From contig NZ_VMBG01000002.1 of the NCBI RefSeq assembly GCF_007559335.1, positions 124,001 to 188,000 on the forward strand: a stretch of 64,000 nt of DNA, written 5' to 3'. The position numbers and the translations under genes were made by a program. Every line of letters begins with the position of its first letter. The stretch's first letter is position 1. Of the stretch, positions 11,302 to 53,481 are shown piece by piece. Below the pieces are notes generated by a model. The model was given only the letters and a program-made list of their open reading frames with translations. It was not told the origin of the DNA and did no database searches. The DNA is from Rariglobus hedericola (GTDB taxonomy: Bacteria; Verrucomicrobiota; Verrucomicrobiia; Opitutales; Opitutaceae).

Positions 11302-11329
11302 AGATTGTTTCAGTCGTAACCAGGTCTTG

Positions 11330-11361
11330 AAAAACCGCGCCTCGAAAGGGGCGCGGTTTTT
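11330..11361 (+). terminator. intrinsic terminator downstream of gltB
   Basis: A perfect 12-bp stem (11330-11341 with 11350-11361) encloses an 8-nt loop and is followed by a T-run. It starts 28 bases past the gltB stop. Because the stem begins with a run of A, it could also stop minus-strand transcripts of the converging PEP-CTERM gene that ends at 11370. Confidence 0.88.
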
Positions 11362-11369
11362 TGCGAACG

Positions 11370-12110
11370 TCACCGTCCGCGCCGGCGAAAAAAAGCCATC
11401 ATCAAGGTCGCGGCGCCGAGCAAACTCGTGACCGTGGCGGGTTCGGGGATGGCGGTGGCGTCGAGGCGGACGTTGTCGAAGTTCACTTCGATGCCGGGGC
11501 CGGCGTTGAGGTTCACCAGGCGGATGCCGAGGGCTTGGCCGGCGAGGACGTGGCTCGCGCCGATGGAGAGGGAAAACTGCGACGTGAGGAACGTTCCTTC
11601 AGCAGGGAGCAGGCTGTTGTTGTCGGACGCGATGACTTGGCCGCCGGCGAGCAGATCGATGCGGTAGCCAGGGAATCCGGTGAAGGCGAAGGCATTGTTA
11701 TTGGGTGTGGCGTCGGGGGCCATGTTGCCCACTTCGACCGTGAGTGTGTAGCGCGTGTTGGTCAGCAACGTCGCGGAGAGCGTCTGCACCAAGCCGGACT
11801 CGATGCTAGCGAATTGGGATTGGTTGTTGGCGTTGTCCATGAGGAACACGACGCCGACGTTGCGGCCTTCGGGTGCGCCGCCCGAGTATAGCGTCGATCC
11901 CGTGGGATTTAGCGCGCCGATGGAGCGGTTATTGTGGTTGATCGAGCCATACGCGCTCCAGCCGGCGGGACCGGGCGAGGAGACGTTGAACGTATTGTTG
12001 GCGAGGAAGAGTGTTTCGAAACCGGCGTTTTGGACGGTGAGCTGTTCGGAGTGGGCGGCGGGAAGCGCGATGGCAACTACGAGCGAAGTGACGAGGAGGC
12101 GTGTGTTCAT
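11370..12110 (-). CDS. PEP-CTERM-anchored exported protein
   Basis: The 246-residue protein has a Sec signal peptide (MNTRLLVTSLVVAIALPAAHS). A beta-sandwich-like body opens with LTVQNAGFET and contains NFDNVRLDA, resembling carbohydrate-binding or discoidin-type jelly rolls. The C-terminus has the PEP-CTERM tripartite signal: PEPATV, a hydrophobic helix and RRRGR. In known systems such proteins are processed by an exosortase and are often linked to exopolysaccharide. No exosortase is in this window. It begins 14 bases after the stop of the upstream PEP-CTERM gene, so the two are probably cotranscribed. The exact ligand is unknown. Confidence 0.85.
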   Translation of the reverse strand: MNTRLLVTSLVVAIALPAAHSEQLTVQNAGFETLFLANNTFNVSSPGPAGWSAYGSINHNNRSIGALNPTGSTLYSGGAPEGRNVGVVFLMDNANNQSQFASIESGLVQTLSATLLTNTRYTLTVEVGNMAPDATPNNNAFAFTGFPGYRIDLLAGGQVIASDNNSLLPAEGTFLTSQFSLSIGASHVLAGQALGIRLVNLNAGPGIEVNFDNVRLDATAIPEPATVTSLLGAATLMMAFFRRRGR

Positions 12111-12124
12111 GAGGATGGTGTTGT

Positions 12125-13078
12125 TCAGGTGGAACGGCGGCGCAGAAGGAAGGTGGCGAGGAGCGTAACGCCGCCGAACAGGGCGGCGGTCGTGGACGGC
12201 TCGGGGACAGCGGCGGTAGTGAGGATCGTGAAATAGTTGGGACCGCTGAGCAGGCCGCCGTCGGCGAAGTCGGCGAGCGATGATCCATCGGCGAGGGCGT
12301 GACGTGAGATCGAGCCGTCGCCGTAGTTGGCCACCAGCAGTTCGCCGGTGAGCGGGTCGATCTCGATGCCGACCGGAAAATCAAGACCGGTGACGAGTGT
12401 GGATTGAACGGGCGCTGCGGAATCAGGGTTGGCGAAGGTTTCGACGGTATTGCCGTAACCCGAGGCGACGAGGAGGCGTCCGTCGGGCAGAAGCGCGAGG
12501 CCGAGTGCAAAAGGCACGTCGCCAAACGTCAGTTGGTGCGTGCCGGTGGCGGCGTCGAAGCGCGCGAGGTTGTAGCTGAAACGGCCGGAGACGTAGAGAT
12601 TGCCGGCGTTGTCGAACGCGATTCCAGACGGGGCGGAGATACTTGCGTCCTGTGCGATCCAACCGGTGTCGAGCGCGCCCGTGGTGGCGTTGTAGCGGAT
12701 GATGGCGTTGCTGGACTGGCTTGAAACGTAGAGATAGCCGTCAGGGCGGAAAAGAAAATCGACGGGGTAATCCAGACCGGTTTCGGAGCCGGCAAAGACA
12801 TCGATGAAGGCACCGCTGTCCGCATTGTATCGCAGGATTTGATCAGAACCGGCGCTCGCAACGTAGAGCAATCCATCAGGGCCGATGCGGGCGCGGTGGG
12901 GCTGGTCGAGTCCGCCGCTGGCCGGAGAGATGAGGACAGTCGGATTGGATCCGTCGGCATCATAACGGAGAATACGGGCGAGGTTGTAGTCACTTACCAA
13001 GACCTGCGCACGGGCGTAAGTCGAAAGGGCGGCCATCAGGAGGAGACCGACGAGGAGGGCGATAAAAAAACGGCTCAT
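12125..13078 (-). CDS. PEP-CTERM beta-propeller (NHL/SMP-30-like) protein
   Basis: The 317-residue protein starts with a signal peptide (SRFFIALLVGLLLMAAL). The body is built of repeated blades such as RIGPDGLLYVASAGSDQILRY, FRPDGYLYVSSQS and FDNAGNLYVSG, about six copies spaced 40-45 residues apart. This indicates an NHL- or SMP-30-type beta-propeller. The tail PEPSTTAALFGG, a hydrophobic stretch and LLRRRST form a PEP-CTERM sorting signal. An upstream ATG two codons earlier is possible. No catalytic residues are evident, so binding or scaffolding at the cell surface is a reasonable inference. It is probably the first gene of a two-gene operon with the next PEP-CTERM protein. Confidence 0.85.
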   Translation of the reverse strand: MSRFFIALLVGLLLMAALSTYARAQVLVSDYNLARILRYDADGSNPTVLISPASGGLDQPHRARIGPDGLLYVASAGSDQILRYNADSGAFIDVFAGSETGLDYPVDFLFRPDGYLYVSSQSSNAIIRYNATTGALDTGWIAQDASISAPSGIAFDNAGNLYVSGRFSYNLARFDAATGTHQLTFGDVPFALGLALLPDGRLLVASGYGNTVETFANPDSAAPVQSTLVTGLDFPVGIEIDPLTGELLVANYGDGSISRHALADGSSLADFADGGLLSGPNYFTILTTAAVPEPSTTAALFGGVTLLATFLLRRRST

Positions 13079-23559: not shown

Positions 23560-24642
23560 TCAAACCTTCGAACGCAAGCGATTGAAAAGAGTGAGATAGG
23601 CGCCGGCCTGCCGCTCGGGATCGAAGGCCGTGCGGGCAAACTCGCGGGCGGCGCGGCCCGCTTGTTCACGCAGCACGACATCGGTCATCAAGGGATGCAG
23701 TGCATTCAAAAACGCCGTGCGCTCGCCGTGCGGGATCACCCAGCCGGAAACGCTGGGGCGCATGCATTCCGTGACGCCCGCGGCTGCATAGGCGACGGCG
23801 GGCAAACCGTGGGCTTGTGCCTCGATGAGGAAGTTGGACAACGACTCCGCTTGCGAGGCCAGCACGGCGATGTCGGCCGCGGCGTAGAGCGGCGTGGGGT
23901 TGGACTGGAAACCGAGAAATTTAACGCGGTCGCTTACGTTGAGTTGTGCGGCCAGCGCTTCGCAATCAGCGCGGGCGGGGCCGTCTCCTGCGATCCAGAG
24001 CTGCCAATCTGCGTCACGACCGAGCGCGGCGGCGATCTCGACGAGAGCGCGTTGATTTTTCTCGGGACGCAGCATGCCGACGCACAGCAGCACGCGGGTG
24101 TCGGGACCGGCTCCGTGTTGTGCACGTAGGGCGTCGTCGCGAGCGATCTCTGTCGCAGGCGGGAAAACCAAGGCGTTGTGAATTACCGAAACGCGGTCGG
24201 CCGGCAAACCGTAGGTGTGCGTGAGGATGCCGGCGGATTCGGCGCTGTTGGCCACGACGTGGGCGACGCGATGCAAGGAACTCCTGAAAAGCCACGGCAA
24301 GGGTTTTCCCGTGCGCATGGTGCCGACGACCGTCGTGGCGGGCAGGGCGCGGGCAAGCCGGCCGGCGTGGCAATTGGCCATGCGACCCATGCACAGGATC
24401 ACATCGGGCGAAGCGCTGCGGGCGGCTCGCAGCAGGCCGGGCGCGAACCAGTTGAGCGTTGTATCAAAAAACTGGAGACAACGGTGGGGAATTGGCGCGA
24501 GCGTGGGGGCGAGAGTTCCGCCGGGGCGAAAGGTGACGACCTCCACGGCGTGTCCGGCGGTGTTGAAGGCGCGGGCGAGCAGGATCGTCTGGCGTTCGGT
24601 GCCGCCGCTGCGCAGGTGGTCTTGTAGCAGCCAGATCTTCAT
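23560..24642 (-). CDS. GT4-family glycosyltransferase
   Basis: The 360-residue GT-B glycosyltransferase starts MKIWLLQDHLRSGGTERQTILLARAF, given only in part: key piece GGTERQT, the N-terminal glycine-rich acceptor loop. It carries LLCVGMLRPEKNQ at about 185 and the donor-binding E-x7-E region in AESLSNFLIEAQAHGLP at about 270. This is a retaining GT4 enzyme that transfers a hexose from a nucleotide donor. Its start overlaps the stop of the upstream GT4 gene by four bases, so the two are translationally coupled. Confidence 0.92.
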   Translation of the reverse strand: MKIWLLQDHLRSGGTERQTILLARAFNTAGHAVEVVTFRPGGTLAPTLAPIPHRCLQFFDTTLNWFAPGLLRAARSASPDVILCMGRMANCHAGRLARALPATTVVGTMRTGKPLPWLFRSSLHRVAHVVANSAESAGILTHTYGLPADRVSVIHNALVFPPATEIARDDALRAQHGAGPDTRVLLCVGMLRPEKNQRALVEIAAALGRDADWQLWIAGDGPARADCEALAAQLNVSDRVKFLGFQSNPTPLYAAADIAVLASQAESLSNFLIEAQAHGLPAVAYAAAGVTECMRPSVSGWVIPHGERTAFLNALHPLMTDVVLREQAGRAAREFARTAFDPERQAGAYLTLFNRLRSKV

Positions 24643-25814
24643 GTGGAGGCGGAGTCGTCCGGCACTTCATCACCGGGGGAAAACAGGAGTTCGGCGGCGC
24701 GGGTCCAGGTGTTGCGCCGGGCCCAGAGACGGCCGGCTTCGCCCATGCGGCGGCGGAGGGGTGCGTCTTCGATGAGCGTGCGAAACGCCTCGGTCAGTGC
24801 GGCTGGTTGATGAGGGGTAACGAGCAGCCCGGTTTCACCCTCGGCGACGGCTTCGGAGACACCGCCTACGTGATGCGCGATCACCGGAAGGCCGTGGGCG
24901 GAGGCTTCAAGGTAGACGAGCCCGAAGCCCTCCACGCTGTGTCCGTGATCTATGCTCGTGAGGGCAAAAATATCGGCCTGCGCATAAACCTCCTCCAGCG
25001 TCTCGTCTGAAAGATTGCCGAGAAAACGCACGGTGAGGCCGGGCCGTGCGGCGGCCGCGTGCAAGGTTTGTTCGTAGTGCGGTTTGGTGGAGCTGCCGAC
25101 GATCCAGTATTCGATCCGCTCAAGCAGCTCCGGGGAAAGCGACTGCAACGCCTCAAGGGAGACGAGCTGGCCCTTGCGTGGATGCAGTCGTCCCACGGTC
25201 AGGATGATGACCTTGCCGGCGGCTGGGGCCAGCGGTGAAACCGAGGACGGAGTGTTGGCAAAATCCGCGCGCAAGGCCCCGGGAGTGCGGAAGGTTTTGG
25301 TGATGGCCTCGGGAAACCGTTCGCAGAGTAATTGCTGCGTGTAACGGGTCAGCGTGCTGACGCGAAACGCGCGACGCAAAAGCCGGCGGGTAAGGAAGCG
25401 CGTCGCGGGATCGGAGTGAAAGCGCAGGATTTCCGAGCCGTGGAAGGTCAGCACGAGCCGGCGGGCGCGCACGGCGCCGAAAGGCAGCAGCAGCATCCAG
25501 GCGAGCATGGGGCCAGGTTCGGCGAGATAGACCGTGGCGTGGCGCAGGCGCCGGCGTTCACGGAAAAGTTCACGAATGAGCCGGAGCCGGCAGGAAAGAT
25601 CATGGGAGCCGTCCAGAGGCAGTCGTTTCACCGCAAACGGCCAGGGCTTCTCGGTGGATCCGGGGCTGAGTCGATGGGTCCAGACCTCCACGGGGTGCCC
25701 GATTTCGACCGCGGCGCGGGCGATTTCCTCGGTGAAGGTGGCGATGCCTCCGCGCTTTGGGTAAAACTCGTGGGTCAGGATGATCACGGGTCTTGGCGTG
25801 GCGTTGAAACTCAT
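24639..25814 (-). CDS. GT4-family glycosyltransferase
   Basis: The 391-residue protein opens with VIILTHEFYPKRGGIATFTEE, the PxxGG loop of GT4 enzymes. It carries ILTVGRLHPRKGQ at about 210 and the donor site HSVEGFGLVYLEASAHG at about 300. The E-x7-E pattern is intact. The first gene of the minus-strand run, it faces the ACP-dehydratase gene across a 147-base divergent gap that probably holds both promoters. Coupling to the next GT4 by a four-base overlap suggests that they act in sequence on one acceptor. Confidence 0.92.
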   Translation of the reverse strand: MSFNATPRPVIILTHEFYPKRGGIATFTEEIARAAVEIGHPVEVWTHRLSPGSTEKPWPFAVKRLPLDGSHDLSCRLRLIRELFRERRRLRHATVYLAEPGPMLAWMLLLPFGAVRARRLVLTFHGSEILRFHSDPATRFLTRRLLRRAFRVSTLTRYTQQLLCERFPEAITKTFRTPGALRADFANTPSSVSPLAPAAGKVIILTVGRLHPRKGQLVSLEALQSLSPELLERIEYWIVGSSTKPHYEQTLHAAAARPGLTVRFLGNLSDETLEEVYAQADIFALTSIDHGHSVEGFGLVYLEASAHGLPVIAHHVGGVSEAVAEGETGLLVTPHQPAALTEAFRTLIEDAPLRRRMGEAGRLWARRNTWTRAAELLFSPGDEVPDDSAST

Positions 25815-25961: not shown

Positions 25962-26864
25962 ATGCCTGATACCGCACCTTTGACCGTCACAGCTGCCCCC
26001 TCGTCCGCTCCTTTGTTTTCCGCCGAGGATGAAGCAGCTCTTCGCGAGAGCCTGCGCCGGTGCTCCTCCGAGACGATTGAGGCTGCCCTGATTTATCGAA
26101 AAACGGGAGATACCAAACAGCTTCCGACGATCATCATCGGGATTTTTGACCGTTTTGTGGAGCCCGAGCTGCGTCCGCGTCTTGCCGCCGACAGCGATGA
26201 TCTCCGCGTCATCGAAGATCTGGGGCTTGATTCCCTCACGATGATGGAAGTCGTGATGCTGGTCGAAGACGTCACGCAGACCAAGATCGCCAACGAGGAG
26301 CTTCGCGGCCTCGCCACGATCGGCGACATCAAGACCTTCGTCGATTGCCGCGCCCGTGGAGTGCAGCCGCCGGCCGCCGCCCAGACTCTTTCGCATGAGG
26401 CCGTGCTGGCGATCATGCCAATCCAGCCACCTTTCTTGTTTATCGACGAGGCGCGAGTGAGCGCCACGCAGGCGACGGCGACCTACCGGATCACGGGACA
26501 GGAGTTTTTCCTGACCGGCCATTTTAAGGATAACCCCGTGATGCCCGCCTCGATCATGTTGGAGGCATTGGGGCAACTCGGTGTATTGCACCTGCTCGCC
26601 GGTCTGCCGGCTGAAGAGGGCAAAGTGGTCGGCACGGGCACCATCTTTTTCGCTTCGACCGACGGCGTGCGCTGCCATCGCGTGTGCAAGCCCGGCGACG
26701 TTCTCACGCTCACCCTCAAGCCGAAACGCATCAAGGCGCCACTGGCGACCTTTACGGGCAACATCCGCGTGGGCCAGGAAAAGGCAGTCACGGCCGAGGA
26801 AATCACCCTGACGTTTGGGTTCGTAGATGCGCCTGCGCCGGTCACGCCCGCAGTCGCTTCCTGA
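25962..26864 (+). CDS. acyl carrier protein-FabZ-like dehydratase fusion
   Basis: The 300-residue protein combines two domains. Residues about 50-130 are an acyl carrier protein: LRVIEDLGLDSLTMMEVV places the phosphopantetheine Ser at 91. Residues about 143-290 are a hot-dog dehydratase: LAIMPIQPPFLF, then TGHF with catalytic His187, PVMPASIMLEALGQ with Glu201. Both catalytic residues are kept, so dehydration of 3-hydroxyacyl chains is possible. The ATG with MPDTAPLTV is chosen; a frame open to 25332 is antisense to the upstream GT4 gene. A ketoacyl synthase follows, so an ACP-bound acyl chain is probably made and dehydrated here. A covalent ACP-dehydratase fusion is unusual. Confidence 0.88.
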   Translation: MPDTAPLTVTAAPSSAPLFSAEDEAALRESLRRCSSETIEAALIYRKTGDTKQLPTIIIGIFDRFVEPELRPRLAADSDDLRVIEDLGLDSLTMMEVVMLVEDVTQTKIANEELRGLATIGDIKTFVDCRARGVQPPAAAQTLSHEAVLAIMPIQPPFLFIDEARVSATQATATYRITGQEFFLTGHFKDNPVMPASIMLEALGQLGVLHLLAGLPAEEGKVVGTGTIFFASTDGVRCHRVCKPGDVLTLTLKPKRIKAPLATFTGNIRVGQEKAVTAEEITLTFGFVDAPAPVTPAVAS

Positions 26865-26935
26865 GTTGGGTTGATTTTTGGGCTTTATCGCCCGCTTTGT
26901 TTCCCGACCATGGCAGCTTAATTTTACACAGCGCC

Positions 26936-28198
26936 ATGCCCCGAGTTTTTATCACCGGTTTGGGTTTCATCACGAGCATCGGCAACGACTCCGCGACGGT
27001 TGAAACCAGTCTGCGCGAGATGCGTCACGGCATGGTGGTGTATCCACCGTTTCAGGCGGATAACATTCCGATCAAGGTCGCCGCGCCGGTGAAGCAGTTT
27101 CAAACCGAGGCGGAGGATCCCGAGGATTGGGTCATCCCCGCGCCTTATTCGGTGAAGCGCGAACAGCTCCGCAGTCTCAGCCCCAATGCGCTCTACGCGA
27201 CCTGCGCATTTCAGCAGGCCATTGCGGATGCGAAGCTGACTCCCGCTGACGTCTCTAACGACGACACCGGCCTTTACGCCGCCTCCGCCGGTTCGCCCCG
27301 CATACTGGCCGCTCACATCAATCGCATCCGCGATGTCGGTGTCGCCAAGTGTCCGCCGCTTTCGATCGTGGCGAGCATCGCCGGCACGGTTCAGTTCAAC
27401 CTCGTCGCGCATTTCAAAATCAAAGGTGCATCGACGGGCTTTTCGTCGGCCTGCGCCTCATCGACCCACGCGCTCGGCTTTGCTTTTGATGAGCTCGCAC
27501 TCGGCCGGCAGAAGCGGATGTTTGTGGTAGGCGCCGAAGACGGAAACACCGAGACGATCCTGCCCTTTGCCTCGATGCGCGCGCTCTCGCCTAACCCCGA
27601 TCCGGAGACTGCGTCGCGTCCGTTTGATACCGGCCGCGATGGTTTTGTCGGCACCGGCGGGGCGACGGTGATCGTCTTGGAAACCGAGGACGAAGTTTTG
27701 CGCCGCGGAGTCACGCCTTACGCGGAAGTGTTGGGTTGGGGCCAGGCGTCCGACGGGCACAACGTCGCGATTTCCCATCCCGACGGACTGGGCCTCGCCA
27801 ACGCCATGCGCCGCGCGCTCGCCGCTGCGAAAGTCACGCCCGCCGAGATCGACTACATCAATGCCCACGCCACTTCGACGCCCATTGGCGATGCGTCCGA
27901 GTGCAAGGCGTTGCGCACCGTTTTTGGCGAACAGGCGGCGCGCGTTGCCGTGAGCAGCACCAAGGCGCTCACGGGCCACGGCCTCTCTCTGGCCGGCGCG
28001 ATGGAGACGGGCTTTTGCGCCCTCGCTCTGCGCGGCGGCTTCATGCCGGGCTCCGCACACATCAAGCAGCTCGATCCGGTCTGCGCTGGATTAAACATCC
28101 TGCGCGCGACCGAAAACACCGCGCCACGCATTGTGCTGAATAACAGCAGCGGTTTTGGCGGCGCCAACGTATGCGTCGTGCTGAAAGCCGTGACCTGA
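26936..28198 (+). CDS. beta-ketoacyl-ACP synthase (FabF/KAS II-like)
   Basis: The 420-residue condensing enzyme starts MPRVFITGLGFITSIGND. The catalytic Cys173 is in SSACASSTHAL, with His311 (NAHATSTPIGD), Lys343 and His348 (TGHGLS). All four are present, so it should be active in decarboxylative condensation of malonyl-ACP. It follows the ACP-dehydratase fusion by 71 bases. No ketoreductase or acyltransferase is adjacent, so these would come from general fatty-acid synthesis. Chain length and end product are unknown. It stands next to glycosyltransferase genes, which suggests lipid anchoring or acylation of the glycan. Confidence 0.92.
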   Translation: MPRVFITGLGFITSIGNDSATVETSLREMRHGMVVYPPFQADNIPIKVAAPVKQFQTEAEDPEDWVIPAPYSVKREQLRSLSPNALYATCAFQQAIADAKLTPADVSNDDTGLYAASAGSPRILAAHINRIRDVGVAKCPPLSIVASIAGTVQFNLVAHFKIKGASTGFSSACASSTHALGFAFDELALGRQKRMFVVGAEDGNTETILPFASMRALSPNPDPETASRPFDTGRDGFVGTGGATVIVLETEDEVLRRGVTPYAEVLGWGQASDGHNVAISHPDGLGLANAMRRALAAAKVTPAEIDYINAHATSTPIGDASECKALRTVFGEQAARVAVSSTKALTGHGLSLAGAMETGFCALALRGGFMPGSAHIKQLDPVCAGLNILRATENTAPRIVLNNSSGFGGANVCVVLKAVT

Positions 28199-28205
28199 CC
28201 CTCGC

Positions 28206-29525
28206 ATGACTGCACATTCGCGGGTAATCGGCTCAAAAATAAACATAACTCATTCCGCTGAAATTAAATCGGACGATTTGTCACTTAATAAGTTACAAAG
28301 TGGTTTGAGTCCGAAGGATCCGGTGATCGCGTATATCTTCACCACGTTTCCGAAATCGACGGAGACGTTTCTTCAACGCGAAGTCACCGGCCTGCAGGCG
28401 CTCGGGGTCAACCTGCGGCTCTATTCCATGTGGGGCGGTGGTGGCGAATTCAACGGCCTGAAGGTCACGCGATTTCCGAAGTGGCGGTTGCTGTCGCTGG
28501 TCGTATGGCTGCCGTGGCTGGTCGTGTGCCGCACGGGTGTATTCGTTCAATTGATACGCGGCGTCTGCACGCGGCGTCCGCCTTCGGGGCTCAACTTTTT
28601 TGAAAACCTGCTCGGGCTGGGCTTCGGGCTGGTGTTCGCGGCGCATTTCCGCCGCGAACGCCCGGCTCACATCCACGCAGTGTGGGGCGGGGGCCCGGCG
28701 ACGGCGGCTTGGTTGTTATGGCGGCTCGACGGGCATCCTTACAGCGGTGCGGGCCATGCCTACGATTTGTATCAGCGCGGTGGCGACTGGTGGCTGCGGG
28801 AGAAGCTCGAGCCCTCGATGTTTATTCATACGTCCACCGACATGGGACGTCGCACATTGCTTGAACGCGGTCTCGCCGACGAAAAAATCCATGTCATCCG
28901 GCGCGGACTCAACACGCTGCCCGCGCTCAAGCCGCTTCGCGAAGAACGAAAACGCACGCCGCTGCGGTTGCTGTGCGTGGCGCGCCTCGTTCCTAAAAAA
29001 GGATTCGACCACCAGTTCCGTGTGTATGCGGCATTGAAGGCGGCGGGCGTGCCATTTGAAGCGCGCATTGCCGGCGAAGGTCCCTTGCTGGCGTCGTTGC
29101 AAACGCACGCTCGTGAACTCGGCATCGTGAGTGACGTCACGTTTCTCGGCCATCTCTCGCAGGCGGATGTGGCGGCGCAGCGGTCTTGGGCTGATGTGTT
29201 GCTGCACACGGGCGTGATCGCCGCCGATGGCGATCGGGATGGTTTGCCGAATGTGATTCCCGAGGCGATGAGTGCGGGCGTGCTGGTGGTGACATCGCCG
29301 GCCGCGGCCACCACTGAGGCCATCACCGACGGCGTGACGGGTCGCGTGGTGGATGTCACCGACAGCGAGGGCTGGGTGAAGGCCCTGGTGGCCTTGCGCG
29401 ATGACGACGCGGGGAGTGAGCGGATGCAGATGGCGGCACGGGCGTGGGTGGAGGCGAATTTCGATGCGCAGAAAAACGCAGGGCGGATCGCGGCGTTGTA
29501 TAAGGAGGCGACGAAATCCCCATGA
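28206..29525 (+). CDS. GT4-family glycosyltransferase
   Basis: The 439-residue GT-B protein has an N-terminal extension (about 1-38) before VIAYIFTTFPKSTETFLQREV. The hallmark opening is FPKSTETF, like the start of colanic-acid WcaL-type and related enzymes. The donor-binding half carries LLCVARLVPKKGFDHQ at about 258 and GDRDGLPNVIPEAMSAG at about 345. The E-x7-E motif is recognisable. It is preceded by a short 7-base gap after the ketoacyl synthase and overlaps the following GT2 gene by four bases. Confidence 0.9.
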   Translation: MTAHSRVIGSKINITHSAEIKSDDLSLNKLQSGLSPKDPVIAYIFTTFPKSTETFLQREVTGLQALGVNLRLYSMWGGGGEFNGLKVTRFPKWRLLSLVVWLPWLVVCRTGVFVQLIRGVCTRRPPSGLNFFENLLGLGFGLVFAAHFRRERPAHIHAVWGGGPATAAWLLWRLDGHPYSGAGHAYDLYQRGGDWWLREKLEPSMFIHTSTDMGRRTLLERGLADEKIHVIRRGLNTLPALKPLREERKRTPLRLLCVARLVPKKGFDHQFRVYAALKAAGVPFEARIAGEGPLLASLQTHARELGIVSDVTFLGHLSQADVAAQRSWADVLLHTGVIAADGDRDGLPNVIPEAMSAGVLVVTSPAAATTEAITDGVTGRVVDVTDSEGWVKALVALRDDDAGSERMQMAARAWVEANFDAQKNAGRIAALYKEATKSP

Positions 29526-30403
29526 GCAGTCCGGAGGTCAGTATTCTTATGGCGGTTTACAACCGGCTCGATCTGACGAAGCGCTGTCTTGAGACGCTGG
29601 AGAGATCGATGGAAGGAATCGTTTACGAAGTGCTGATTGTTGATGACGTGAGCACCGACGGGACGCGTGATTTCCTGAAAACCCTGGGCGCCCCCTATCG
29701 GGTTTTTCTGAATGAAAAGAAGGGGAATTTTGCGATCAACAACAACCTCGCGGCGCGCGAGGCGCGGGCGGAACGGCTTTTGTTTTTGAACAACGATACG
29801 GAGCTCGCGCCCGGCTGGTATGAGCCTATGCGCGAAGGACTCGCCCGGTTTCCCGATGCGGGGTTCATGGGCAATCTCCAGACCAATCCGTCGACGGGGC
29901 GCTACGATCACATGGGCGTGGTGTTCGCGCCGTGGCTCACCCCGGCGCATTACGGCCAGCATTACGCGCGAGTTCCGGCGTGGTTGAAAAACGGATACAC
30001 CTCATGGAGCGCGGTGACGGCGGCCTGCTGTCTGACGTATCGCGACACGTTTTGGGCGGCGGGAGGCTTTGACGAAGCCTATGTCAACGGCTGCGAGGAC
30101 ATCGACTTGTGCCTGCGCATGCACCAGCAGGGGCGGCGCCATTACGTGGCCAACGAGAGCGAGCTCATTCATCACAAAGGCGCCTCGCCGGGGCGGAAGA
30201 CATTCAACGATGTGAATCTCGCGCGGCTGAAGGCTACCTGGGCGGATTACATCCGCAGGGAATTCGTGGCGAAGGATGCACGGCTTTTCGCGAAGACGTA
30301 TCTGCGAAAGACGTTGGTTTACCCGTGGAAATCGAATCTCGGGAAGGCGTGGGCCTGCGTGCTGATTCTGGCCGGCCTGAGCCGGCCGGGGCGCCGCGGT
30401 TAA
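29522..30403 (+). CDS. GT2-family glycosyltransferase
   Basis: The 293-residue GT-A enzyme has SILMAVYNRLDLTKRCLETLE, with donor site DDVSTDGTR (about 42-50) and FLNNDTELAP, the DxD-like motif, near 92. The acceptor-side ED motif is NGCEDIDLCLRM near 190. It resembles rhamnosyl- and galactofuranosyl-type polymer enzymes, but acceptor and donor are undetermined. Its TAA stop overlaps the stop of the converging oxoamine synthase gene: the two share the palindromic TTAA at 30400-30403. Confidence 0.92.
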   Translation: MSSPEVSILMAVYNRLDLTKRCLETLERSMEGIVYEVLIVDDVSTDGTRDFLKTLGAPYRVFLNEKKGNFAINNNLAAREARAERLLFLNNDTELAPGWYEPMREGLARFPDAGFMGNLQTNPSTGRYDHMGVVFAPWLTPAHYGQHYARVPAWLKNGYTSWSAVTAACCLTYRDTFWAAGGFDEAYVNGCEDIDLCLRMHQQGRRHYVANESELIHHKGASPGRKTFNDVNLARLKATWADYIRREFVAKDARLFAKTYLRKTLVYPWKSNLGKAWACVLILAGLSRPGRRG

Positions 30404-31599
30404 CTGCGCTTCTTGGCGTAGGCGAAGGCTTCGCCGATACGGTCGAGTTGTTCGTCGGTGTGACCGGCGGAGATCGCGGTGCGAATGAGGTCTTTGCCAA
30501 TGGGAACGGCGGGCGCGACGGAGATGACCGTGAACACGCCCTTTTCCATGAGGGACTGCCAGAAGGAATAGGCGCGCATTTTGTCACCGATGACCACGGG
30601 CACGGCGGGGGTTTCGCTGCCCCAAGTGTCGAGGCCGAGCGACTGAAGCATGGCGATGTAGCGCTTCTGGTTTTTCCAGAGACGCTCGAGATGTTCGGGT
30701 TCGGACTGGAGGACATCGAGCGCGGCCGAAGCGGCGGCGGCCTGCGACGGACTGAGCGAAGCACTGAAGATGGTGTGCTTGCCGTGGGTGCGCATGTATT
30801 CGATGAGCGAGCGATCACCGGCGACAAAACCGCCGGTGCTGGCAAGGGCTTTGGACATGCTGCCGCAGATAATGTCGACCTTGTCGGTGAGGCCGAAGTG
30901 ATCGGCGGTGCCGCGACCCTGACGACCGAGCACACCGAAGCCGTGCGCATCATCGAGCACGTTGAAGCATTCGTATTCGTTGGCGATGGCGAGCAGGCCG
31001 GGCAGGTGCGCGATGTGGCCTTCCATGGAGTAAACGCCCTCGACCACCATCATCTTAGGGGTGTTGGCGGGAAGACTGGAGACGACGGTGCGGAGGTCGT
31101 CAGGGCTGTTGTGGGAAAAACGCTCAACGGACGCGGTGGAGAGACGAATGCCGTCCCAGAGGCACGAGTGGATGTTTTTATCCGCAAGAATGGCGTCTCC
31201 CTTTTGCGCAAAGGCGGCGACGCCGGAGAGGCAGGAAAGATAACCGGCGGCGTGGATATGGCAGGCCTCCTTGCCGAGGAACGCGGCGAGTTTTTCCTCA
31301 AGCTCGACATGGTAGGCGCGCGAGCCGTTGGACACACGGGCGCCGGTGGGGCTGGTGCCCCATTTGAGGAGGGCGGCACGGGAGGCCTCGATAACCTTGG
31401 GATGAAAGGAGAGCCCGAGGTAATCGTTGCTCGCGAGCATGATCAGGTCGCGCCCATCGAGACGAACGGACGTGCCCTGCTGCGACTGCATGGCATGGTA
31501 GTAAGGCGCGTAACGCAGGCGGAGCTTCGTGGCCGAGTCATCCTGGCAACGAGACGCGATGCTGTTGCGGTTTTTGGAAGAGAACAGGGAGAACGCCAT
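30400..31599 (-). CDS. PLP-dependent alpha-oxoamine synthase (serine palmitoyltransferase/BioF-like)
   Basis: The 399-residue protein is a fold-type I PLP enzyme. The active-site Lys250 is in GSMSKALAST, DDAHG at 216-220 binds the cofactor, and LASNDYLGL near 55 marks the family. Members join an acyl thioester and an amino acid with loss of CO2; examples are serine palmitoyltransferase, BioF and CqsA. SKALASTGGFVAG resembles serine palmitoyltransferase slightly more than BioF, but I cannot settle it. With the ACP-dehydratase and ketoacyl synthase nearby, a sphingoid- or sulfonolipid-like precursor made from acyl-ACP is a plausible inference. Biotin synthesis is less likely since no other bio genes are present. 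Confidence 0.85.
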   Translation of the reverse strand: MAFSLFSSKNRNSIASRCQDDSATKLRLRYAPYYHAMQSQQGTSVRLDGRDLIMLASNDYLGLSFHPKVIEASRAALLKWGTSPTGARVSNGSRAYHVELEEKLAAFLGKEACHIHAAGYLSCLSGVAAFAQKGDAILADKNIHSCLWDGIRLSTASVERFSHNSPDDLRTVVSSLPANTPKMMVVEGVYSMEGHIAHLPGLLAIANEYECFNVLDDAHGFGVLGRQGRGTADHFGLTDKVDIICGSMSKALASTGGFVAGDRSLIEYMRTHGKHTIFSASLSPSQAAAASAALDVLQSEPEHLERLWKNQKRYIAMLQSLGLDTWGSETPAVPVVIGDKMRAYSFWQSLMEKGVFTVISVAPAVPIGKDLIRTAISAGHTDEQLDRIGEAFAYAKKRS

Positions 31600-31640: not shown

Positions 31641-32417
31641 TCAGGGCAACGGGTCCCGTCTGTAATCGCCCCGGCTGAAATATTTTTCGAGCCAGACGTA
31701 GGCGCAGATAAAAAAGTAGCGGCTGCCCATTTCCTTAATCTTGAGCTTGGCGATGCCGTGCTTGCGGTTTTTCCAGGAGATGGGGGTGACGGTCCACGAA
31801 AAGCCGCGGACGATTGCCTTGAGCGGAATCTCCACCGTGAGATTGAAGTGGGGCGCCATTAACGGCCGGCACCCATCGATCACGGTGCGGCGGTAAGCTT
31901 TGAAGGCATTCGTGGTGTCGTTCAGCGGGATCGCGAAGAGAAACCGGATGAACATGTTGGCGAGGCGATTAACGAGAAGCTTGATGCGCGGGTAGTCTTC
32001 CACGCGCCCGCCTTTGACGAAGCGGCTTCCGAAAACGCATTCGTAGCCTTCGTCGTTGAGCAGGCGCCAATAGCGGACGGCGTCGCGAGGGGAATCCGAA
32101 GCATCGGCCATCATGATGACAAGGGCATCACCCTGGCTGTGGTTGATGCCGTAAGTAATGGCGCGACCGAAGCCGTGAGGCCCTGGATTCTGGATGGGAT
32201 TGAGCGTGGGGATTTCGACTTGCTTGAGATCCTGCAGAACTTGCCAGGTGCGATCGGTCGAACCGTCATCGACAACGACGATTTGATGGGCGATGCCGGC
32301 GGCGGTGAATGCGGCGTAAATATCGCGCAAGGTTTCCGGCAGGGAGCCTTCTTCGTCCCGTGCGGGAATGATGACCGAATAAAGGGTCAGGGTGCCGGGC
32401 GGATGGAGCGTGCGCAT
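31641..32417 (-). CDS. GT2 glycosyltransferase, dolichol-phosphate mannosyltransferase-like
   Basis: The 258-residue GT-A protein has SVIIPARDEEGSLPETL, the donor motif VVVDDGSTDRTW (about 46-57) and the DxD-like MMADASDSPRD (about 100). The region LNDTTNAFKAYRR is shared with polyprenyl-phosphate hexosyltransferases. It lacks transmembrane segments at the C-terminus, as in soluble DPM1-type enzymes. It probably charges undecaprenyl phosphate with a sugar for use by membrane glycosyltransferases such as the 622-residue protein nearby. It follows two SDR genes on the same strand. Confidence 0.9.
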   Translation of the reverse strand: MRTLHPPGTLTLYSVIIPARDEEGSLPETLRDIYAAFTAAGIAHQIVVVDDGSTDRTWQVLQDLKQVEIPTLNPIQNPGPHGFGRAITYGINHSQGDALVIMMADASDSPRDAVRYWRLLNDEGYECVFGSRFVKGGRVEDYPRIKLLVNRLANMFIRFLFAIPLNDTTNAFKAYRRTVIDGCRPLMAPHFNLTVEIPLKAIVRGFSWTVTPISWKNRKHGIAKLKIKEMGSRYFFICAYVWLEKYFSRGDYRRDPLP

Positions 32418-32426
32418 CTTGGAAAA

Positions 32427-33506
32427 TTAAAAGGAAGCCGATAACTCAAGCCACTCCGGGTGGGCTTCGGCGTGGACGGCGATCTCCTCCAGCACGACTT
32501 GCGCCGGAGTGGCGGGTTGCCAGTTCCAGAGTCGAGCCGCCTTGGCGGAATCAAGCACCATCCATGGAATATCAAAGGGGCGGGGCTTTGGATCGGAAGT
32601 TACTTCGCGAGGGCCAAAACGGTCGGAGCACCACGCGCTCAACTGACACAGAGAATGCGCTGATCGTGCTCCTCCGGAGACGTTGATGATGCGGTCGGTG
32701 GCGTTGAGCGGCCGGGTGGAGTCAATTTGTTGCCTTAACAAGGGGACGAGATCCCGGGGATGCAGGCAGTCGCGAACTTGGTGCCCCTGTCCATCGAAAC
32801 CAATGTAGTTGAGTGGAAGGCCGCGCAGGTAACGATTGATCCAATACGCGAAGATTCCCTGGTCGGCGCGTCCGAATTGGCCCGCGCCCGCGAGCACGCC
32901 GCAGCGATTGATGAACACGGGAAACTGAAAGGTCTCGCCGTATTCGACGGCGAGAGCCTCGGAAGCGAGCTTGGTGGAACCGTAAAGAGAAACGGGCGCG
33001 GTGGTCGCGAAGGTTTCGGATACGCCGTCGGACGTGAGACCGGCGGGAAGCAGCGAGGCGTCGGATGAAGGGCGGAAGGCGTGCGCGTGAGTCTCGATCG
33101 CGAGGTTGGCGAGTGGAGGGATGGAGTAAACGCGGCTGGTGCTGAGAAGAATAAAACCGGCGCGATGCCGCTTGCAGTATTCAAGCAGGTTGATCGTCCC
33201 GAGGAGATTGTGTTCGACGAGTTGACGGGAGCTGGTGCGTCCATCCACACCGGCGAGCACGCTGGGATTGGCGGCGGCATCGATCACGAAATCAGCCGGC
33301 GGGATCACCTCGAGATCGCTCGGGTTGCGCAAATCTCCGTGAAAGAGGTGCACGCCGAGAGCTTTCAGTTCGGCGCGATTGGTTTCGCTGCCGGGGCGGA
33401 TGAAGTTATCAAGCCCGAGCAGTTCGACCCCGGGATGATCCTTCACGAGCGAGCGTGCGAGTGTGCTGCCCACAAAGCCACAGATGCCGGTGATAAGGAG
33501 TTTCAT
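32427..33506 (-). CDS. NAD-dependent SDR sugar epimerase, CDP-paratose 2-epimerase-like
   Basis: The 359-residue extended SDR opens with LLITGICGFVGSTLA, the NAD-binding GxxGxxG. The catalytic set is LLSTSRVYS and SLYGSTK with the Tyr and Lys. LGLDNFIRPGSETNR and FIGDG-like features resemble CDP-paratose 2-epimerase (tyvelose epimerase), but the substrate is unproven. The ATG giving MKLLITGICGF is chosen over the one at 33623. It is paired head-to-tail with a second SDR of the same class 41 bases upstream. Confidence 0.87.
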   Translation of the reverse strand: MKLLITGICGFVGSTLARSLVKDHPGVELLGLDNFIRPGSETNRAELKALGVHLFHGDLRNPSDLEVIPPADFVIDAAANPSVLAGVDGRTSSRQLVEHNLLGTINLLEYCKRHRAGFILLSTSRVYSIPPLANLAIETHAHAFRPSSDASLLPAGLTSDGVSETFATTAPVSLYGSTKLASEALAVEYGETFQFPVFINRCGVLAGAGQFGRADQGIFAYWINRYLRGLPLNYIGFDGQGHQVRDCLHPRDLVPLLRQQIDSTRPLNATDRIINVSGGARSAHSLCQLSAWCSDRFGPREVTSDPKPRPFDIPWMVLDSAKAARLWNWQPATPAQVVLEEIAVHAEAHPEWLELSASF

Positions 33507-33547
33507 TGATCGAGAGTGGACGTCGGCAAAGGTAGGCGGCTTAGGTT

Positions 33548-34609
33548 TCAGGCCGTATTCCGCGTGCGCCAGGCCTCTACGATCTGGCGGATGGTTTCTT
33601 CCAGCGATTGCGTGATGTCCCACTCCGGGTAGTGGGCGCGCATCTTGCGCAGGTCGGAGTAGTAGCAGATGTGGTCGCCCGCACGGTTTTGGTCGAGGTA
33701 AGTGAAAACCTGCTGCTTGCCGGTGAAGCGTTCGGCGATCCTGAAGGCTTCAAGGATCGAGGTGCTGTTGGCCTTGCCGCCACCGAGATTGTAGACTTCG
33801 CCGGCGCGGGGGGCGGCGACGAACGAAGCCATGAAGCGGGCGACGTCGAGCGAATGGATGTTGTCGCGCACCTGTTTTCCTTTGTATCCGAAAACCTTAT
33901 ACTCGCGGCCCTCAAGGTTACATTTCACGAGATAGGAGAGGAAGCCGTGGAGCTCGACGCCGGAGTGGTTCGGTCCGGTCAGGCAGCCGCCGCGCAGGGC
34001 ACATGTGGGAAGGTTAAAATAGCGTCCGTATTCCTGCACCATGACGTCGGCTGCAACCTTGGATGCCCCGAAAAGCGAATGCTTTGACTGGTCGATCGTG
34101 AACGTCTCGGCGATGCCCTCGTCGTAGGCCGGGTCGGCGTAATCCCAACGCGTTTCGAGTTCCTGCAACGCGATGCGGTTGGGGGCGTCGCCGTAAACCT
34201 TGTTTGTGCTCATGTGGACGAACGGCGATTCGGGGCAGGCCTGACGGGCGGCCTCGAGCAGGTTTAACGTGCCGACCGCGTTCGTGTCGAAGTCGTCGAA
34301 CGGGATCGCCGCGGCGCGATCGTGGGAAGGTTGCGCGGCGGTGTGAACGATGGCGGACGGACGGATTTTCTTAACGAGATCGAGGACGCCGGCCCGATCA
34401 CGGATATCGAGCTCGTGGTGGTTAAAGCCGGGAAGCTCGTCTGAAAGGCGGCGTTGATTCCAGCGTGTGTCACCTTGCGGACCGAAAAACACGGCGCGTT
34501 GATTGTTGTCCACGCCGTGGATGGTGTAGCCCAGTTCGCGTGCGAAATAGATGCAGACCTCGGAACCGATGAGGCCGGACGAGCCGGTGACAAGGAGGGT
34601 TTTAGACAT
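33548..34609 (-). CDS. CDP-paratose 2-epimerase-like SDR with a Tyr-to-Phe substitution
   Basis: The 353-residue protein has [10 protein letters not shown] for NAD binding and [18 protein letters not shown]. The nucleotide-sugar end ([28 protein letters not shown]) matches CDP-paratose 2-epimerase-type enzymes. At the catalytic position, the Tyr of YxxxK is Phe (HSLFGASK), although STNKVYG is intact. The codon is TTC, so it is not a reading error in translation. I recall a family of SDRs with the same Phe, so this may be a conserved variant. The reaction is probably an epimerisation or dehydration that does not need Tyr as general acid. Confidence 0.85.
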
Positions 34610-34707
34610 GATGACGGCAGAGCTTATTCATGCGAATGTGCGCAACGATGGTGGGATGTCTGCGGGTGAAAGGTGAAATTATTTTGAGCGAGAGGCGGTG
34701 AGCTTTA

Positions 34708-36576
34708 TTAGAACAACCGGTGATGACGAGCAAAGGCCTCGGTCTCGGGGTCTTTCCAAAGGGCGATACCGATGAGCGCCACGCCGAGGAACGCGATTAT
34801 CCCAGCTTGGTCCTGCAGGAAACCGGCGACCAGGCTGAGTGCGCCCACTTCACGGGGAAGTGTGAAAGCCAGCCAGGAGTTCGGGCTGTTGTCGGTCATG
34901 CGCAGGGTAAACGGGCCGGCCGGCCGGTGAAAGAAAACGGATCTCCAGCGGGAAACCGCCGAGGCGGTCAGGGTGATTTTGTGCTCGGTGCCCTTTTGAT
35001 CGATCAGGGTGAGGGCGAAGTCCTTGTTGTTGGAATAACCGGTCACCGAGATCTTCAACCAAGCGGTGCGGGCTTCGGCGGGGAACTGCAGCTCGACCGA
35101 GCCGGTGGCGCCGCCGCTGGCGTCAAAGGAACCCCATGAGGTCTCGGAGTCACGGTTGGTGAAGGTGGGCCCAAAGCCGTCGGGCCTGAAGGCGTTGCCA
35201 ACGGTGTTGGTTGTCTTGAGCGGGCTGAGCGGGGCGCGGACGTTGGTGGGCAAAATTGCGCGAATGCTCGGGTGGTTAATCGTATCGGCGAGACGTTCGG
35301 AGTTGGGGTAGGGGACATGCATGAAGGGCTTGTCGGTGAACTCGGCGATGTCGTTGTTGAGCACGAACGCTTTCACATGCCGCTCCTGAATGAGGCTTTC
35401 CTCTGCCTTCTTCGTGATCTGTTTCGGAAGCCTGAAGACCGCCGAGAAAATCAAGCAGCCGCCGATCGTGACAACCCATGCCGCGGCCAGGAAGACGGCG
35501 GCTTTGCGAAAACGATCTTTGTTGGCGATGAAAAGATACAACAAGCAGGCAAACCCGACGCAGAGGCTCAGCGAAAAATTGTCCGCGTAGCGTGAGGCGA
35601 GGGAGCCGACGGCGCGACCATACGCGATCGCGACCGCCTGGCCGGAGCACCACATGCCGAGCGTGATCAGAAGCCAGGCCGGGTCCTTCGTGCTGATGCG
35701 TTTCCACAAAGCCCAGACCAGCAGCGCAACCAAGGGGGCCTGCGCGATAAAAGCGACGACGGGAACCTTTGACGGCCAGCTGGTAACTTTTAGCAGGGCA
35801 CTGAAGAAGTGGCCGATGTTTTGTGCCTTGAGCACACTGTGGGCGCTCACGTGATGGATCATCAGCAGACCAGCCGCGGTCACGGCGCCCAGCACCAGCA
35901 ACCCGATTCCCTGCCGGACCCACTCGGACCGGTTTTGAAACAACCGCATCGCGATCAAACCACAGGTCACCGCCGGCGCGAAAACGCCTCCCGCCATGGA
36001 GATTGGCCCGAGGCAAAAAACGATCACGCCCACCCACCAACCCCGCGAAAGCGTGGGATTGCGCCAGCAGCAGCCGATGCCGATCAGTCCCCAAAGAACC
36101 ACGAGGTAGAACTGCGATTGAAAACCCCACAGGGTGTTTTCCCACCCGAACGGCAGCGCGAAAATGGCCGCCACGAAAAAGCCGAACAACAAGCGAGCCG
36201 CGTAGCTCGTGAGAAACCGCCCGCACAACGCGATTAACACCATGATGCCGCCAACGTGGATGAAGGCCTGCGTCACCATCTCGACCTTCGGATCCCAGAT
36301 GCCATTCAAGTCGACCAAACCGATCAAGAGCACACGGGTAAGAAAGATGCGGTGCTCGCAGTGAGCCGCGAACATTTGGGACCAGGACAGCCGGTTTTCT
36401 TGCGCGGGTGCGAGCATGCCCTTCGCCTCGCCGTCCCACTGATCCCAGAAAGGGGTGGAATTGCCAAATTGATCGATTAGCGCGAATTTGGCGGCGAGAA
36501 CCAGCAGGCCAAGTCCGACAAGATAAAGCCAGGTGATGCGCGGGCGGGTGGTTATTGGAGAGTTATCGATCATCAA
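34708..36576 (-). CDS. polytopic membrane protein with GT-C-like layout and an embedded soluble domain
   Basis: The 622-residue protein has about ten to eleven transmembrane helices in residues 15-395. An acidic first loop, GNSTPFWDQWDGEA, is reminiscent of the Asp/Glu-rich catalytic loop of GT-C glycosyltransferases. Residues about 400-575 form a soluble beta-rich domain (AWLKISVTGYSNNKDFALTLID). A last transmembrane helix lies near 585-605. Similar proteins use polyprenyl-linked sugars. The DPM1-like GT2 nearby could provide one. I do not recognise a specific family and the function is inferred. Two adjacent ATGs (36576, 36573) could be used. Confidence 0.6.
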   Translation of the reverse strand: MMIDNSPITTRPRITWLYLVGLGLLVLAAKFALIDQFGNSTPFWDQWDGEAKGMLAPAQENRLSWSQMFAAHCEHRIFLTRVLLIGLVDLNGIWDPKVEMVTQAFIHVGGIMVLIALCGRFLTSYAARLLFGFFVAAIFALPFGWENTLWGFQSQFYLVVLWGLIGIGCCWRNPTLSRGWWVGVIVFCLGPISMAGGVFAPAVTCGLIAMRLFQNRSEWVRQGIGLLVLGAVTAAGLLMIHHVSAHSVLKAQNIGHFFSALLKVTSWPSKVPVVAFIAQAPLVALLVWALWKRISTKDPAWLLITLGMWCSGQAVAIAYGRAVGSLASRYADNFSLSLCVGFACLLYLFIANKDRFRKAAVFLAAAWVVTIGGCLIFSAVFRLPKQITKKAEESLIQERHVKAFVLNNDIAEFTDKPFMHVPYPNSERLADTINHPSIRAILPTNVRAPLSPLKTTNTVGNAFRPDGFGPTFTNRDSETSWGSFDASGGATGSVELQFPAEARTAWLKISVTGYSNNKDFALTLIDQKGTEHKITLTASAVSRWRSVFFHRPAGPFTLRMTDNSPNSWLAFTLPREVGALSLVAGFLQDQAGIIAFLGVALIGIALWKDPETEAFARHHRLF

Positions 36577-49034: not shown

Positions 49035-49668
49035 TCATCCATACGGCACGATCGCACACTTCGCTGATAGTGCGGGCATCGTGCGAGATGAGGACGACCG
49101 TGGTGTTGGCTTGGAATCGTTCGCGGAGGGCAGCCTTGGATTTTTCGAGAAAGGCTTTGTCGCCCACGCCGAGCACCTCATCGATCAGGAAGATATCGGG
49201 ATCGGTCTGCAGCCCGATGGAGAATCCCAACCGGGCGTTCATACCCGATGAGTAGGTGTTGACCTGTTTGTGAAACGCATCGCCCAAGCCGGAGAATTCC
49301 TGGATTTCGCGCAGGCGGCTTTCCATGTGACGTTTGGATTTCCCCATGAAAAGGCCGCTCAGAATGGCGTTCTCGGCACCGGAAAGATGGCCTTCAAAGC
49401 CCACGCCCAAAGCGAGCAGTTGCACGTGAAGATCCGGACGGTCGTAACGTATCGAGCCCTCGTCGGGAGAGATGATGTTCGCGAGCAATCTTAGCAGCGT
49501 GCTTTTCCCGCAACCGTTGCGCCCGACCACGCCGAGTTTTTCTCCGCGGCGTATATCCAGGGTCAGACCGCGCAGAGCCCATGGGGCGGATGAGGCCTTG
49601 GCTCCGCGTTGCCGGCCGCCCCGGTAGTATACGCCCACGTTTTCCAGTTGGATAATGGAATCAGACAT
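48946..49668 (-). CDS. polysaccharide ABC transporter ATP-binding protein (Wzt/KpsT-like)
   Basis: The 240-residue ATPase has Walker A GRNGCGKST, signature YSSGMNARLGF and Walker B-like FLIDEVLGVGD, the sequence set of O-antigen and capsule exporters. Alone it would stop near the end of the nucleotide-binding domain; the C-terminal carbohydrate-binding domain of long Wzt proteins is absent. It therefore resembles KpsT or short Wzt. With the permease it exports a completed glycan on a lipid carrier. Its ATG overlaps the permease stop by eight bases. Confidence 0.93.
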   Translation of the reverse strand: MSDSIIQLENVGVYYRGGRQRGAKASSAPWALRGLTLDIRRGEKLGVVGRNGCGKSTLLRLLANIISPDEGSIRYDRPDLHVQLLALGVGFEGHLSGAENAILSGLFMGKSKRHMESRLREIQEFSGLGDAFHKQVNTYSSGMNARLGFSIGLQTDPDIFLIDEVLGVGDKAFLEKSKAALRERFQANTTVVLISHDARTISEVCDRAVWMNAGRILAEGDPTHVCETYETGIASSRRAL

Positions 49669-50434: not shown

Positions 50435-50443
50435 GGGCGTGGT

Positions 50444-51322: not shown

Positions 51323-51327
51323 ATAAT

Positions 51328-52392: not shown

Positions 52393-52396
52393 GGCT

Positions 52397-53470: not shown

Positions 53471-53481
53471 GGGGACGGGAA

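Follow-up and report, generated by a model that had tools for sequence, protein, structure and literature searches.

Serine palmitoyltransferase (SPT), one of the alpha-oxoamine synthases (AOS), has been described from several groups of bacteria, and these systems are the background for a gene set of Rariglobus hedericola (Opitutaceae, Verrucomicrobiota), in which an acyl carrier protein (ACP) fused to a FabZ-type dehydratase, a beta-ketoacyl-ACP synthase (KAS) and an AOS are encoded close together. In Rhodobacteria, such as Caulobacter, SPT is fed by a specialised ACP, AcpR, along with AasR, which constitutes a precedent for acyl-ACP as the donor, according to the available part of PMC9386255. 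In the sulfonolipid synthesis of Alistipes, the available part of PMC9304779 describes SulA (CFAT) as having the fold and pyridoxal phosphate chemistry of SPT and as a user of acyl-ACP; SulA and SPT have in common Asn53, His140, Lys251 and Arg376, and differ at Lys281 of SulA, which is Ala in SPT. The SPT of Sphingobacterium multivorum and other Bacteroidota is represented by PDB 3a2b and 8guh and by the NCBIfam model NF047600. SPT-like genes are already known in the Verrucomicrobiota, given the 22 Black Sea metagenome-assembled genomes of the phylum with Spt-like proteins that are counted in the available part of PMC11334938.

The stretch analysed, called the window hereafter, comprises 64,000 nucleotides (contig NZ_VMBG01000002.1, positions 124,001 to 188,000) with a G+C content of 60.5%, from a source genome of 4,146,955 bases. 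The genes at its center are as follows.

25962-26864, plus strand: ACP-FabZ fusion of 300 aa, with an N-terminal helical extension, an ACP domain (S91) and a hot-dog dehydratase domain (H187, E201); PF00550 and PF07977
26936-28198, plus strand: KAS of the KAS I/II type, 420 aa, with C173, H311 and H348; PF00109 and PF02801
28206-29525, plus strand: GT4 glycosyltransferase, EpsE-like (NCBIfam/Pfam), in relatives often located between KAS and AOS
29522-30403, plus strand: GT2 glycosyltransferase (NCBIfam/Pfam), an inconstant member of the locus across relatives
30400-31599, minus strand: SPT-type AOS of 399 aa with the aminotransferase I/II fold (K250, H144, N58, R373, Ala280)

We propose, with a probability of about 0.62, that a dedicated sphingoid-base module is encoded in the window in its Opitutaceae form, and that in this module an acyl-ACP would be passed to an SPT-type AOS to give a reduced and probably glycosylated sphingoid lipid. 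KAS and ACP-FabZ would build or tailor the acyl chain on a private ACP, and the AOS would condense it with an amino acid, losing CO2 and yielding a 3-keto base, as is expected at the family level from its sequence and marker residues. A short-chain dehydrogenase/reductase (SDR), present in the locus of many relatives and not in the window, would reduce the ketone, and glycosyltransferases of the locus would then glycosylate the lipid, which may be destined for the outer membrane or serve to anchor surface polysaccharide. This last step is the weakest; it is helped by a glycosyltransferase of relatives resembling monogalactosyldiacylglycerol (MGDG) synthase (19 of 25 stretches), which is missing from the window locus.

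Compared with the known systems, the Opitutaceae set resembles that of Rhodobacteria in its dedicated ACP, the gene of which lies directly upstream of that of the AOS in one congener (G178), and differs from it in that the ACP is usually fused to FabZ and paired with a KAS. The Bacteroidota SPT supplies the best profile and PDB matches of the AOS and has the same catalytic residues and the Ala marker, whereas the window AOS scores 387 bits on NF047600 against a cut-off of 640, stands on a long stem of its own in the tree and has KAS, ACP-FabZ and a classical SDR as linked partners. Two loci elsewhere in the Verrucomicrobiota (L148, L151), and one of a Rubrobacter plasmid (L158), show another arrangement. 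The cluster there begins with an AOS of the same tree set, 36-46% identical to that of the window, and continues with genes for a GNAT and an epimerase-type reductase; neither KAS nor ACP-FabZ nor the SDR was seen in L148 or L151, and none of the three is annotated in L158. On a plasmid of Roseomonas mucosa (NZ_CP147881, L160), an ACP gene directly precedes an AOS of the SPT clade, among genes for a glycosyltransferase, a flippase and a CDP-alcohol transferase, so that ACP and AOS are paired in a glycan context there as well.

The catalytic residues assigned to these proteins by the first-pass annotation are all in place. In ACP-FabZ, S91 lies in LGLDSL, H187 in GHF and E201 in LEALGQ, the three residues are invariant in six of six orthologs, and NCBIfam and Pfam agree on a PP-binding and a FabA-like domain; an AlphaFold model built with six sequences (mean pLDDT 74.5) matches FabZ structures. 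The KAS is complete, with Cys173, His311 and His348 and with both its ketoacyl-synthase N and C domains. Its scores on the fabF (327 bits, cut-off 494) and FabB (320 bits, cut-off 630) models lie below the cut-offs, and it is probably not the housekeeping enzyme. A KAS paralog with 62% identity is encoded in the same genome (L087; G000:C1:416000-435000), in an aryl-polyene-like cluster, mostly named by eye, that comprises two ACPs, two KAS (the paralog being one), two FAD enzymes, an acyltransferase and an exporter. Lys250 of the AOS lies within GSMSKALAS, and the 2.2 kb between KAS and AOS do hold two glycosyltransferase genes; the minus strand of the AOS had been omitted from that description.

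As to the identity of the AOS, comparison with NCBIfam models gave 387 bits for SPT-CFB, 346 for TIGR01825, 334 for SPT-beta, 331 for BioF, 313 and 263 for KBL, 237 for ALAS and 220 for CqsA. Among PDB sequences, the Sphingobacterium SPT matched best (3e-97), followed by 8s1y, an AOS of mixed naming (4e-76), and the SPT 2x8u (6e-69); KBL (5e-66), a cysteate acyltransferase (3e-58) and BioF 1bs0 (1.5e-48) were weaker. The structures 7poa and 8s1y are of Thermus origin, and 2x8u is a Sphingomonas wittichii enzyme. When 39 rows were placed in a tree, the AOS clade of the Opitutales fell inside a 29-row set together with the crystallised SPTs 3a2b and 2x8u and the Rubrobacter AOS-GNAT-reductase cluster, with a support of 89/94, which is short of the starred level; this set stands apart from the BioF, KBL, ALAS and CqsA-like rows, several of which are long-branched. 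In the alignment, the AOS keeps the residues common to SPT and SulA as N58, H144, K250 and R373, and has A280 at the marker site. Ala occupies this site in 24 of 25 aligned AOS rows of the phylum, the exception being Val in a polyketide synthase-fused AOS of the same genome; elsewhere it is Thr in BioF, ALAS and 7poa and Asn in KBL, and the marker is not exclusive, as Ala is also found in a CqsA-like row and in a Phocaeicola plasmid row. By sequence, the enzyme is thus placed with the SPT type, its amino acid substrate being most likely L-serine.

The gene set is widely conserved in the family, as the first-pass annotation would lead one to expect. In a sample of 200 Opitutaceae genomes (cut-offs of E 1e-100 for AOS, 1e-120 for KAS and 1e-40 for ACP-FabZ), AOS was found in 174 genomes as a single match each, KAS in 186 and ACP-FabZ in 179, and the presence of these genes is far beyond chance. 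With matches in 47 of 49 genera, the AOS comes close to being a core gene of the family and is not tied to any single polysaccharide locus. In the phylum sample, 54 of 387 genomes had an AOS match at 1e-85, and matches of at least 52% identity came only from the family and from its order and class; a contig collection yielded 27 AOS loci, 67-87% identical, of which 24 are titled Opitutaceae, Opitutae, Opitutia or genera thereof, two Verrucomicrobiota only and one Akkermansia muciniphila. The KAS cut-off also admits the 62% paralog and the KAS counts cannot tell the two apart, so ACP-FabZ, whose next match in the source genome is at 6.5e-14, was used for co-occurrence. AOS and ACP-FabZ were both present in 165 of the 200 genomes and both absent in 12. 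Among 147 high-quality genomes, 132 had both, six ACP-FabZ only, three AOS only and six neither, against 0.7 expected; the joint absence is significant by Fisher's test at 5e-6, or at 3e-3 with the four genomes of genus g44 counted once, and the six double absences are spread over three genera (g44, g18, g41). Six of the AOS absences and one of the ACP-FabZ absences were assigned by elimination.

Physical linkage was drawn from 150 listed rows each of AOS and KAS matches, in genomes that are related and not independent draws. Among the matches listed, 135 genomes had both genes, on the same contig in 75 and on separate draft contigs, where linkage is not judgeable, in 60; the two starts lay within 12 kb in 68 of the 75 same-contig genomes, and at 19 kb to 1.25 Mb in the other seven. 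In the usual layout, the AOS is followed on the opposite strand by GT4, GT4, an MGDG-synthase-like GT28, SDR, KAS and ACP-FabZ, beyond which lie a divergent GT4 and a YbgC-type thioesterase. In 25 fetched family stretches with AOS, SDR was present in 20, GT28 in 19 and KAS in 18, many of these stretches having been picked for AOS-KAS proximity and none for SDR or GT28.

A joint action of ACP and AOS finds its strongest indication in the gene order of two genomes of the same genus. In G134 (L125), a GNAT (PF13480; 12940-14043), ACP-FabZ (12088-12939), KAS (10811-12073), SDR (9976-10806) and AOS (8759-9961) are all on the minus strand, spaced by 0 to 14 bp, and a membrane protein follows. In G178 (L038), again all on the minus strand, a GNAT (3138-4196), an ACP without dehydratase (2710-3141), the AOS (1495-2697) and a PMT-like glycosyltransferase (3-1448) form a run in which the ACP gene lies 12 bp upstream of that of the AOS, and a fused ACP-FabZ is also encoded on a separate contig. 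The PF13480 GNAT heading both runs is a candidate N-acyltransferase; searched by tblastn, it did not match the GNATs of other sphingolipid-type clusters. Outside the family, partners are partly kept in four of 11 AOS stretches from the order and class (G532, G343, G437 and G273; L141, L142, L144 and L146), and G343, of another family, has AOS, GT4, SDR, KAS, a free ACP and GT28 together. The view of the first-pass annotation that an acyl chain on the local ACP is joined to an amino acid therefore gains support from comparative genomics, namely from these same-strand runs, the linkage and the correlated absence, and its sulfonolipid part is not supported.

Other assignments of the AOS have to be weighed against the placement with SPT. 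Synthesis of a sulfonolipid base from cysteate by a SulA/CFAT-like enzyme would involve the same fold, chemistry and acyl-ACP donor; at the site of Lys281 of SulA, however, the window enzyme has Ala280, Lys is found in none of the 25 aligned rows of the phylum, and this assignment, rejected on the marker residue, is extremely improbable. It is also very unlikely that the AOS is the BioF or KBL of the family, or a CqsA-like maker of a small amino-ketone signal. The closeness of the BioF/Kbl-type profile scores (331 and 346 bits) and the Ala of the CqsA-like row speak for such a role, and in the approximately unbiased (AU) test, whose groups were chosen once the tree was known, a clade of AOS with BioF remained at p 0.069, above 0.05. 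On the other side, the AU test rejected a clade with KBL (p 0.015), the marker site is occupied differently in BioF and KBL, and the CqsA model reaches only 220 bits. In a search for bioB alone among the bio genes, no match was found in the source genome, and the gene was missing from 86 of 100 family genomes searched, the source included, which makes a BioF role unlikely for an enzyme present in 174 of 200 genomes. The SPT placement thus stands firm against KBL, and against BioF it is favored by profiles, tree, Ala280 and the lack of bioB without formal rejection.

A different kind of objection accepts the SPT but not its partners: the AOS could be an ordinary SPT working on housekeeping acyl-ACP, with KAS and ACP-FabZ serving another lipid and the neighborhood being inherited without functional meaning. 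The convergent orientation of the AOS in most linked genomes would fit this, as would the partnerless AOS stretches from the order and class, and four family genomes (G012, G047, G078 and G101) possess ACP-FabZ, yet their 19.5 kb AOS stretches are without KAS and ACP-FabZ. Against it stand the same-strand runs of G134 and G178, the correlated absence of AOS and ACP-FabZ, and a linkage that persists at 59-63% AOS identity (G343, G013), and we regard it as unlikely. The same low standing is given to a variant of the sphingoid-base module, not exclusive of it, in which the AOS product would be a lipid anchor or primer for a surface polysaccharide instead of a free membrane glycolipid. The locus does lie inside a polysaccharide region, glycosyltransferases are frequent partners, and in G343, the one such stretch in which exporters were looked for, the module directly adjoins genes for an ABC-2 type permease and for an ABC ATPase carrying TPR repeats, capsule-type by eye. 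By contrast, AOS orthologs in G319 (L136:4849-11552) and G391 (L139:4478-10968) lie on one strand with Omp85 (BamA-like), OmpH and LpxD, families that were tested for G319 and assigned by homology for G391; this setting suggests a role in the outer membrane and fits a membrane lipid equally well.

Several observations weigh against the sphingoid-base module itself. The window AOS is 3.5 kb from the ACP on the opposite strand, and among the matches listed it is convergent in 67 of 68 linked genomes and on the same strand in one. The AOS stays below every curated NCBIfam cut-off, the scores on NF047599 (334 against 500) and NF047603 (263 against 670) falling short as does that on NF047600, and the grouping with BioF was disfavored without being formally rejected. 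Some genomes have one gene without the other (ACP-FabZ without AOS in 14 of 200, AOS without ACP-FabZ in nine), many of them incomplete, and seven of the 11 AOS stretches outside the family, some of them short, are without any partner. The SDR was not found in the source genome at E 1e-20 and is present in two of nine genus genomes searched, so that the reductase there must be another SDR, for instance L088:12012-12839. The window locus has no MGDG-like GT28, the only match in the genome being a paralog of 32% identity located 33 kb away, and no N-acyltransferase was found among nine locus proteins scanned with NCBIfam and Pfam. As for lipids, the polar lipids of R. hedericola and Nibricoccus are given as phosphatidylethanolamine, phosphatidylglycerol and diphosphatidylglycerol in Table 1 of PMC13274419, and high-resolution mass spectrometry of a new Opitutales isolate, which may or may not have the AOS, gave mainly phosphatidylcholine and diphosphatidylglycerol in the same paper; the words sphingo- and ceramide are absent from its available text.

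The SDR of relatives is not claimed as a proven 3-ketosphinganine reductase, for it scores alike on KdsR (98 bits), FabG (95) and general SDR models (112). No ceramide-pathway reductase (CerR) or N-acyltransferase (CerS) was found at the window locus, where two epimerase-like genes are nearest to sugar-nucleotide models, and no acyl-ACP synthetase (AasR) was found among the nine locus proteins scanned, a genome-wide search for it having not been made. In the genus, GT28 genes are represented only by paralogs of 32-35% identity, in eight of nine genomes. In the source genome, C2:188813-189919 was rejected as an ortholog of the locus GT28, since it is 32% identical and has better matches (46-48%) to a different set. 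A GT28 paralog, a 249-aa gene and a class III aminotransferase-like gene form a set just beyond the end of the window (window 62799-63998 and L174:2300-5420), and homologs of the aminotransferase-like gene and the GT28 paralog flank a 268-aa gene beside AOS and KAS in G343 (L142:11111-14276).

Outside the window, the same genome encodes a ketosynthase-ACP-dehydratase-AOS protein of 1312 aa (G000:C1:1566000-1584000; L088:5094-15488), whose AOS part is found in four of 100 family genomes. It is accompanied by a GNAT-like gene, a divergently adjacent SDR and a CDP-alcohol phosphatidyltransferase, and further by a PAP2-type protein resembling phosphoinositol dihydroceramide synthase (151 bits, cut-off 480) and an inositol-3-phosphate synthase (538 bits, cut-off 638), so the region has the appearance of an inositol-phosphoceramide cluster with a polyketide-synthase/AOS fusion at its head. 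With the same kinds of catalytic domains and an SDR gene nearby, the fused protein appears to be a non-orthologous counterpart of the same logic as the window set, from which it differs in being a single chain, in its AOS part (36% identity), in Tyr and Val at two marker sites and in its inositol-phosphoceramide-type neighbors.

No enoyl reductase lies beside either the window set or the fused protein, and the chain given to the AOS could therefore be trans-2-enoyl. An early proposal reportedly derived sphingosine from trans-2-hexadecenoyl-CoA. If KAS and ACP-FabZ handed a trans-2-enoyl-ACP to the AOS, the product of its condensation with serine would be 3-keto-sphing-4-enine. The 4-ene would already be in place when the condensation takes place, so that neither a desaturase nor oxygen would be needed, and the route would exist in the genome in two independent forms, the window set and the fused protein (G000:C1:1574 kb). 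We consider this extension decidedly doubtful, as a fused dehydratase is missing both from the AOS-linked ACP in G178 and from the ACP in G343, and the chain could also be reduced by the housekeeping enoyl reductase.

The remaining genes around the module are listed below.

24639-25814, minus strand: GT4 glycosyltransferase, divergent from ACP-FabZ, at the same locus edge in relatives
31641-32417, minus strand: GT2 of the polyprenyl-phosphate-sugar (ArnC/DPM) kind; PF00535, ArnC model 57 bits, below the cut-off of 529
32427-33506, minus strand: NAD-dependent epimerase/dehydratase, probable sugar-nucleotide enzyme (NCBIfam/Pfam)
33548-34609, minus strand: NAD-dependent epimerase/dehydratase, probable sugar-nucleotide enzyme (NCBIfam/Pfam)
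34708-36573, minus strand: membrane protein of 621 aa, no family in NCBIfam/Pfam, glycosyltransferase C-like by eye only

The 3' ends of AOS and the GT2 of 29522-30403 overlap by 4 bp. Because the AOS is convergent with the run of ACP-FabZ, KAS, GT4 and GT2, the window alone gives no shared operon, and a single-operon reading is rejected. By position, the AOS could be co-transcribed with the minus-strand genes of 31641-36573, of which the GT2 ends 41 bp upstream of it, and not with KAS. The cluster of the GT4 at 24639-25814 is present in 16 of 29 stretches, that is, the window and 28 loci, some sharing genomes. At 48946-54357, an ABC-2 type polysaccharide exporter and dTDP-rhamnose genes are recognized by eye, and the region with them may build an exported rhamnose-containing polysaccharide.

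In the literature searched, largely from outside the subscription journals, no title or abstract describing an AOS/KAS/ACP-FabZ module was found. The occurrence of the module in most members of the Opitutaceae suggests that they make a sphingolipid-like molecule for which that literature gives no report in this family. The lipid lists published for the family show, in the parts available, only ordinary phospholipids, in contrast to the sphingolipid-type lipid predicted here. If the prediction is true, a widespread bacterial family makes such a lipid with chain-extending and dehydrating enzymes of its own, and would provide cultured organisms in which to test how the chain of a sphingoid base is selected in bacteria and whether the double bond of sphingosine can arise without a desaturase.

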